Assembly: GCA_963678705.1 (NCBI GenBank)
Contig: OY783214.1
Location: forward strand, 12,958,001-13,022,000
Origin: Panorpa germanica
Lineage: Eukaryota > Arthropoda > Insecta > Mecoptera > Panorpidae
Direction of reading: 5' to 3'
DNA length: 64,000 nucleotides
The notes under the pieces were generated by a model. It had not been told where the DNA came from. It did not search any database and saw only the letters and a program-made list of their open reading frames with translations. Numbering within the stretch: the stretch's first letter is position 1; each line of letters opens with the position of its first letter. Shown here piece after piece: positions 43-2,084 of the stretch. A program made the translations under genes and the position numbers.

Positions 43-1994
43 GTCGGACCTAGAACTGCAACTGAAATGTTTCCATCACGAAGACCGACTGATGAATACA
101 AATTGGCCGGCAAGTGTCCAAGTTTCTGTCAATGCCACACCGTTGATCATTGATCGTGGTGAAAACAAGACATCACATAAGCCACTTTATTTGAAGGATG
201 TCTGTCAGCCCGGGAGAAACACAATACAAATAACAGTGTCCGCATGTTGCTGTGTAAGCATACGATCTATGATTAATAAATGTTCTAATGTAATAATTAT
301 TGTTTTATAATTTCATTAACTCTATGCATGGTGTCATATGATAATTACTTAATTAGTAATTAACCTAATTAAATAAATTGGTGGAAATTAATGTTGTACA
401 TTATTTATTTACAGTCACATTTATTCGTTCTGCAACTGGTTCATCGACCAAGCGTTCGGAGTGTGCTCCAAGGATTACTCCGCAAGAGGCTGTTAACAGC
501 GGATCATTGTATTGTTAAAATAAAACGGAATTTCAGCAACACCGCATCGAGTTCAAATGGTTCCAATTTACCAAACGATAGAGATAGGGACGCTGTGGAA
601 CAAACGGCATTAAAAGTAGGGTTAAAATGTCCGATCACATTCAAACGAATAACACTACCTGCGCGGGGGCACGACTGCAAACATATTCAGTGTTTTGATC
701 TGGAGTCTTATTTACAATTAAATTGTGAAAGGGGATCATGGCGCTGTCCTGTTTGCAAGTAAGTCTCGATTTACAAAGCACCAATTTGTTTTATAGGCCA
801 TGGTAAATAAGTCTAACCATGTTTTATCTCCATTACAGTAAACCGGCCCAACTGGAAGGACTAGAGGTAGATCAGTACATGTGGGGCATACTAAACACTA
901 CTCTAAACACGTCATCAGATATAGATGAAGTTACAATAGATTCAAGTGCAAATTGGAAGTCATCTCGAAACCTTCCATCTGGAATAAAAGTAATGATAAT
1001 AAATATTTATTAATTGAATGTATTATGTATATGTAGCGTACTAAATTATAAATTTTTCTTAACCAGACCGAAGACGACACAGACTCTTGTGGAGCGAAGA
1101 GGCTAAACAAAGCAATGTCTCCCGGTTCCATGACCCTCCCTACTATGAACAATTGGGATATGTCACAAGCTATGTCACCATATATTCCTCCTGATATGAA
1201 TTCCATTGCAAGCGGGTCAATGATGAACAACGGCCCGCCTTCTTACAACGCAAGCACGATGAACAGAAATGGAATGAGCTCAGGATCATTCGAATACGGT
1301 TCTAATAATGGTCCAGGAAGTAACGAATATTCAGGAGGCGGAGGACCGCTTTCACATTTAAGTGATTCAGTCAACTCATTAGATCCCTTGAATGCGATGG
1401 AAAAATCTTTAAATGACCAGGTACATATAACTCCATAATTATGAAGTTGAAATTTTTATTACTTTTAGTTGTATTGTTTATTCGCTAACTTTGTGTATTA
1501 CGTTTTTTATAGCTACATCTTGACTTTCAGATGCCCCACACCCCCCACACGCCTCATACGCCACACACACCACACACTCCAGGTGGTACTCCAGGGTCCG
1601 CACATACACCTGGAGGTGGCAATTCAGGGCCTCCTAGTGTTCCTCCACCTACCAATGACTCTTTAATGAATAGTAGTGGAGGACCAGGAAGTAACCATAA
1701 CACGTTATCCGATGAAATTCCATCAGATCTGAATTTTGATCCTGCGGCTGTGATTGACGGAGAAGGGAATGAAGGATTAAATGTAATTAGAAATAATTTT
1801 AATGAAACTAGTTGGGTAATATTCTTTATGTAACTCATTTTATTTTCTTACAGTTATTACCTGATAACGTAGTAGATCCCATGGACCTACTGTCATACTT
1901 GGACCCCCCAGATCTTAACACTCCTCCATCCAGCGGGGCCAGCAGCAATGGCAACAACACCAACAACGACGACATATTGGCGCTGTTCGAGTGA
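43..1994 (+). CDS. tna: Zmiz1/tonalli-type SP-RING (MIZ zinc finger) protein, C-terminal 483 residues (5' partial)
   Basis: Six exons: 43-253, 415-758, 839-989, 1067-1420, 1531-1782 and 1854-1994. All introns are GT-AG, 71-161 bp long, and every junction keeps frame. The first exon begins one base into a codon, so the gene starts left of the window. Visible residues 1-110 match the conserved Zmiz region before the RING (ends ...ITVSACCC, then [11 protein letters not shown]). Residues about 140-187 are the SP-RING: C158, H160, C163, C181 and C184 fit the zinc-binding pattern, followed by [14 protein letters not shown]. Next come a Ser/Gly/Asn/Met-rich stretch, an HTP repeat (five copies from residue 341), [13 protein letters not shown] and [21 protein letters not shown], and the acidic-hydrophobic end DDILALFE, which resembles a transactivation motif. 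Family knowledge: PIAS-like nuclear SUMO ligase/co-activator; fly tonalli acts with Brahma chromatin-remodelling genes. Family assignment is very secure; orthology to tna rather than a second Zmiz paralogue is inferred. Confidence 0.95.
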
Positions 1995-2084
1995 CTGAGC
2001 CCCAAACCTGGTCTCCGTGATCAAAGGAAAACGAAAGCCATCACAGATGCAGAGTGTGATGACATCCTGGCTCTTTTCATGTAA
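1992..2084 (+). other. Candidate stop-codon readthrough extension of the tonalli gene
   Basis: The annotated stop TGA (1992-1994) is followed by C, the leakiest context known in insects. The same frame then stays open for 29 codons to TAA at 2082-2084. The extension ends DDILALFM, a near copy of the DDILALFE that ends the main protein. Over the seven shared codons DDILALF (1968-1988 and 2058-2078) five positions differ and all five are synonymous, which suggests selection on the peptide. Simple GT-AG splicing from the donor-like GTGACT at 1991 to the AGs at 2046, 2052 and 2054 does not restore this frame. Alternatives: an older C-terminus stranded by a new stop, or chance. Confidence 0.5.

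Follow-up and report, generated by a model that had tools for sequence, protein, structure and literature searches.

We found that the 3' part of a tonalli/ZMIZ gene of Panorpa germanica is followed by an in-frame extension that is probably translated by programmed stop-codon readthrough. The predicted product, read from this one genome, would be a TnaA isoform in which the tail motif DDILALF is repeated at the new end. Three observations support this reading: the open frame, the exclusively silent divergence between the two motif copies, and a predicted RNA fold together with its position behind the stop. From these we infer that cells form the fold, that it promotes readthrough, and that the extension is translated. 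The earlier note on this DNA had already proposed readthrough. The proposal stands as the best explanation and gains independent support from the stem-loop predicted at 2003-2144, 8 nt after the TGA (z -8.2), but the codon usage of the linker between the two motif copies carries no coding signal.

The 3' part of tonalli and its in-frame extension

The window, that is the whole 64-kb stretch of DNA analysed, contains the 3' part of the gene at positions 43-1994 of the plus strand, for which the exon model gives six exons and 489 amino acids. The gene product matches the Pfam domains GBD-like_ZMIZ1_ZMIZ2 (PF25527, E 1.5e-40, 138.9 bits) and zf-MIZ, the MIZ/SP-RING zinc finger (PF02891, E 5.1e-22, 77.8 bits), both above cut-off. 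A ZMIZ GBD-like domain followed by a MIZ/SP-RING finger defines the Tonalli/ZMIZ family, and both domains are common to this gene, Tonalli (TnaA) and ZMIZ1-ZMIZ2, in agreement with the name tonalli given to it before. The last coding exon, including the TGA, spans 1854-1994 (exon model and Pfam), with an acceptor score of 10.1. Exon 5 has two in-phase acceptors, read from the sequence, that lie 18 nt apart and start the exon at 1513 or 1531; six residues, LHLDFQ, located before an MPHTPHTP repeat, may therefore be optional.

Searches with segments of the gene yielded the following. The MIZ segment returned 11 stretches and one locus from viral contigs, matching 14 residues, and 55 stretches and one locus from genome contigs, the latter from Trichococcus collinsii and matching 17 residues; both were set aside as chance on account of the short matches. 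None of the 23 stretches returned from viral contigs by the last exon was confirmed, and a search for relatives of the tail among solved structures gave 0 matches up to E 10. Three weak Pfam listings for other open reading frames of the window fell below cut-off and were dropped. Elsewhere in the window, tandem arrays with units of 87, 196 and 146/147 nt occupy 6149-11287; the three follow each other in one order at 6149-9148 and again at 9630-11287, suggesting that the array block itself was duplicated. A tRNA-Met (CAT) gene lies on the minus strand at 12654-12725; it is the only tRNA of the window and its only Rfam match at the gathering threshold.

The first copy of DDILALF is encoded at 1968-1988 and is followed by a single E codon (1989-1991) and by the stop TGA at 1992-1994, the next base being C (TGA-CTG). 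Beyond it the frame remains open for 29 codons (LSPKPGLRDQRKTKAITDAECDDILALFM, 1995-2081) up to a second stop, TAA, at 2082-2084. The extension consists of a linker (1995-2057) and a second copy of the motif (2058-2078), and ends DDILALFM-TAA, such that each of the two copies stops one residue short of its stop codon. These coordinates bear out the 29-codon frame after TGA-C, ending DDILALFM-stop, that the earlier note had described. An open frame by itself is unremarkable at this place: another forward frame is open for 44 codons, at 1999-2133.

The two DDILALF copies differ in five of seven codons (5/21 nt) and, exactly as the earlier note had claimed, all five changes are synonymous. It had argued further that drift would be expected to change amino acids as well. 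When five random substitutions were placed in 21 nt, in four settings of 400000 trials each, all five were silent in a fraction of 1.6e-4 to 9.8e-4 of the trials (0.016-0.098%). A pairwise codon model of the two copies with omega 0.03 or 0.001 was better than neutrality by 7.2-8.0 log-likelihood units. Given the base composition, the chance expectation of DDILALF in the extension is ~1e-8; a looser BLOSUM match to the last nine residues of the protein was reached in 3 of 200000 base shuffles, and a loosened DDILALF pattern occurs at these two places only in all six frames of the 64-kb window. Since the copies were noticed because they match, these chance figures carry a selection effect, for which a value of 1e-8 leaves room. 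The number of silent sites between the copies is 4.7-5.0, and with five differences these sites are near saturation. Hence, if the copies arose by duplication, the duplication was not recent.

The linker presents a different picture. Coding-type codon usage was not detected in 1995-2057: the score of frame 0, 6.0 bits, is below those of the two other forward frames (7.7 and 9.5) and was equalled or beaten in 3690 of 5000 shuffles. Evidence for protein constraint within the sequence is thus divided: the motif copies differ by silent changes only, yet the linker does not use codons as coding sequence does. The GC content of the extension (0.478) is higher than that of all 162 nearby windows (2085-3700) and is reached by 109 of the 6183 windows across the rest of the 64 kb, an excess to which the stem described below contributes in part.

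A predicted RNA fold downstream of the stop

Folding predicted a branched extended stem-loop at 2003-2144, which the earlier note did not mention. A repeat search showed that 2003-2029 is complementary to 2114-2144, and these two stretches make up the outer stem: the 5' arm (2003-2029) contributes 27 pairs, and the 3' arm (2114-2144) is located in the 3' UTR, past the second stop. Enclosed between the arms are two inner hairpins, one at 2039-2061 with 7 pairs (2039-2045 with 2055-2061), given by folding, and one at 2068-2113 with 4 + 12 pairs, given by both repeat search and folding, whose stem contains the second stop. The minimum free energy (MFE) of 2001-2146 is -61.2 kcal/mol, compared with -31.6 (sd 3.6) for shuffled sequences, a z of -8.2, and 0 of 200 shuffles were as stable. 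Larger segments gave z -6.8 (1995-2160) and z -6.0 (1900-2300; 100 shuffles). The outer stem retained 26-27 pairs at a mean pair probability of 0.97-0.98 in four contexts, the longest being 1700-2600. Segments that lack the 3' arm showed no unusual folding, with z -0.01 for 1995-2094, 0.25 for 1945-2044 and -0.50 for 2003-2060.

Within the window the fold has the lowest MFE of 2554 plus-strand windows of 150 nt (-61.2, the next being -48.2). Among the minus-strand windows listed, eight lie at -50 to -59, all of them in the tonalli region, indicating that low energy in this region is not unique to the fold. A scan of z-scores over 876 plus-strand windows, 875 of them evenly spaced and one, starting at 2001, deliberately added, placed the fold among three below -8; the other two lie near 59277, in an AT repeat, and near 5111, in a hairpin. 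The latter corresponds to a second strongly structured stretch of the plus strand at 5111-5256, a foldback with z -8.6 that is possibly a small inverted-repeat element. As a control for the position behind a stop, 600 TGA triplets were sampled, of which 596 could be used for MFE and 595 for helix length. None of the 596 reached the -61.5 observed for the 160 nt after the TGA of tonalli, and the sample minimum, -61.2, equals the value for the TGA at 1996, itself located in front of this fold. The longest uninterrupted helix is not rare, as 7 of the 595 reached the observed 13 pairs. Of 52 positions in the helices, 46 form Watson-Crick pairs, 4 are G-U, 0 are A-C and two are mismatches. A strand-neutral inverted repeat should decay equally to A-C and to G-U, so that this distribution leans weakly (1 in 16) towards pairing in the mRNA.

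Between the TGA and the outer stem, whose first base is 2003, lie exactly 8 nt, the spacer CTGAGCCC (1995-2002). When a longer context was folded, the U of the stop and seven of the eight spacer bases were predicted to pair with 1936-1945 of the coding exon. The 8-nt spacer is therefore clean only on condition that this pairing is melted by the ribosome, which during termination should cover the upstream stretch. In the fold of 1995-2160, some of the bases 1996-2000 pair weakly with 2147-2152 (0.47-0.70).

The combination of stop and fold resembles the type II viral readthrough sites. According to passages of PMC3542737, in these the UGA is followed by CGG or CUA and mostly by a structure on its 3' side, in many cases an extended stem-loop whose start lies ~8 nt past the stop; passages of PMC4132726, PMC3542737 and PMC4359377 likewise give CUA or CGG after the stop for strong readthrough contexts. 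As far as these passages describe them, the viral signals and the tonalli site are alike in the UGA, in the C that comes next and in the extended stem-loop 8 nt after the stop, which here is the predicted fold with z -8.2. They differ in the triplet, which here is CUG (UGA-CUG), in that tonalli is a cellular gene, and in the 3' arm, which here lies beyond the second stop.

Readthrough genes of insects offer a second comparison. Passages of PMC5100048 report that readthrough candidates of flies and mosquitoes are enriched in TGA stops and in C as the following base, and that they more often have a structure predicted within the next 100 nt (9-10% of candidates, under 1% of other genes). The leaky context of UGA and then C is present here at 1992-1995. 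To the extent that the passages of PMC8417969, PMC5100048 and PMC3609751 cover them, headcase, vvl/dfr and several hundred fly and mosquito candidates share with our site the UGA, the following C and a predicted downstream structure, and tonalli is, like genes of that group, a nuclear regulator whose extension is short. According to passages of PMC3609751, the hdc stem-loop triggers readthrough when placed in other genes. Other parts of this literature point the other way: several metazoan stem-loop candidates gave no strong readthrough in yeast (passages of PMC5100048 and PMC3609751), and the fly candidates with structures have TAG more and TGA less often (passages of PMC5100048). With its 3' arm the outer stem of tonalli reaches 150 nt beyond the stop, past the 100-nt range that those passages give for the mosquito and fly structure scans. 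Unlike the insect readthrough genes, the present case is known from one genome alone, and its extension repeats the tail motif of its own protein, a kind of repeat that did not appear in the literature passages searched.

Alternative explanations

The main rival to readthrough is that a foldback, a small inverted-repeat element, inserted just after the stop and made a stem-loop that is not a translation signal. We regard this as unlikely, though less so than any other alternative. The fold has TGACTGA on both flanks, at 1992-1998 and at 2146-2152 (sequence and repeat search), and this 7-nt direct repeat could be the footprint of an insertion; moreover, the two further windows with z below -8 (near 59277 and near 5111) imply that strong foldbacks occur in this genome. 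The footprint loses weight on closer comparison. Among 20000 random flank pairs, 508 had a 7-mer or longer in common, making the repeat weak evidence of insertion. The gaps between the repeat copies and the outer stem are also unequal, 4 nt on the left and 1 nt on the right, unlike those of a clean target-site duplication. A second copy of the element is absent from the 64-kb window, and the presence of G-U pairs (4) with no A-C pairs also speaks against a foldback insertion. An insertion by itself leaves the in-frame DDILALF unexplained, and the motif match would need separate selection or chance. An origin by insertion is compatible with later use for readthrough, and insertion could be how the structure arose. 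If, on the other hand, the extension were simply untranslated 3' UTR and the motif match a product of chance or a leftover, the non-coding codon usage of the linker would be expected. We consider this highly improbable, given the ~1e-8 chance expectation of DDILALF and the exclusively silent differences between the copies; with the 4.7-5.0 silent sites saturated by these differences, the match should no longer be present in a neutral leftover.

Other routes by which the extension frame might be entered fare no better than the insertion. An alternative transcript that splices into the extension, with copy 2 as the end of a spliced isoform, appears very unlikely. On paper, 249 phase-compatible GT/GC-AG routes exist, but the best of them, with a total score of 1.9, joins the exon-2 donor (758) to 2027 and would leave the product without the part that connects the MIZ finger with the tail. 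On a matrix that approximates the metazoan consensus, the scores of the six AGs usable as acceptors (1995-2055) range from -9.5 to -3.5, and those of the six acceptors in the exon model from 4.2 to 10.1. According to the earlier note, the frame is out of reach for simple GT-AG splicing around the stop. This is nearly right, in that the acceptors are far weaker than the gene's own, but two phase-matched GT-AG pairs do span the stop and keep copy 1, and they need introns of 36 and 9 nt. That the UGA is altered or recoded in some other manner, through an ADAR edit to UGG, as selenocysteine or because of an assembly error, is scarcely credible. In its favour, the stop is a UGA and a long double-stranded RNA is predicted close by. 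The region 1800-4200 matched no Rfam family up to E 10, SECIS included, and hence the SECIS that a selenoprotein gene carries in its 3' UTR was not detected there. In three contexts the A of the UGA, at 1994, came out unpaired (0.0), and it is preceded by G. An A that follows G is a poor ADAR context. Being unpaired and placed after G, this A is unlikely to be edited. Judged from the sequence, with its weak acceptors and no SECIS, neither splicing nor selenocysteine explains the extension. Translation from an AUG of its own is excluded, because the only in-frame ATG is the last sense codon, after copy 2.

Probable readthrough and the doubled tail motif

Under the readthrough reading, most ribosomes would terminate at the UGA at 1992-1994. 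Because the UGA-C is leaky and the extended stem-loop 8 nt downstream would hinder termination, a fraction of the ribosomes would decode the UGA with a near-cognate tRNA. This would add one residue for the UGA and 29 more, 30 in all, ending at the TAA at 2082-2084. The long isoform would thus carry DDILALF twice, 30 residues apart and separated by a mixed-charge linker, the second copy again lying one residue from the end. Such a form may either bind through both motifs or simply retain one at its extended terminus.

Human ZMIZ1 has a similar acidic-hydrophobic motif at its end. Passages of PMC12170594 describe the human ZMIZ1 C terminus as holding a strong transactivation domain, and together with the likeness of the two protein ends this makes the DDILALF tail plausibly a coactivator-binding motif. 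We infer that DDILALF is an interaction motif, and that either its doubling changes partner binding or its repetition keeps the tail at the new C terminus. The consequence proposed in the earlier note, two acidic-hydrophobic activation tails that act as a dosage switch, corresponds to the former. Another reading, suggested by the fact that both copies end one residue before a stop, is that the extension keeps the motif at the protein end. Fly vvl/dfr offers a precedent, being a nuclear regulator that gains sequence of an activation type by readthrough; passages of PMC8417969 report shown readthrough for it and an extension carrying stretches implied in activation. The fly isoforms TnaA130 and TnaA123, by contrast, are ascribed to different transcripts in passages of PMC6205608, and differ in this from the long form proposed here, which would arise by readthrough. 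A full-text search of a collection of papers found neither tonalli or ZMIZ joined with readthrough nor the DDILALF motif strings; where the terms did coincide, this was in a reference list, with 'tna' in another sense than the gene, or in a paper on noncanonical amino acids. The string 'tna' is absent from the main-text passages searched of PMC5100048, PMC3840789, PMC4528330 and PMC3609751, and tonalli may be present in supplementary tables or in the 2011 fly catalogue.

Put together, the sequence and the folding model allow a more specific proposal, which we advance tentatively and with less confidence than readthrough as such. Tonalli would be a trithorax-group regulator with terminus-preserving readthrough, in which a virus-like UGA with a stem-loop spaced at 8 nt is followed by an extension selected to end in DDILALF, one residue and a stop. 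Both isoforms would then keep the C-terminal motif and the long one would have a further copy inside, so that readthrough would set a switch between one motif and two. Readthrough is reported to be common in insects and the role of most extensions is unclear, whereas the motif in the extension described here can be recognised as that of the protein's own tail. The site combines this repeat with a compact predicted RNA trigger, so that both halves of the proposal can be tested with one reporter. If the proposal is true, readthrough would determine how many copies of an interaction motif a chromatin regulator carries.
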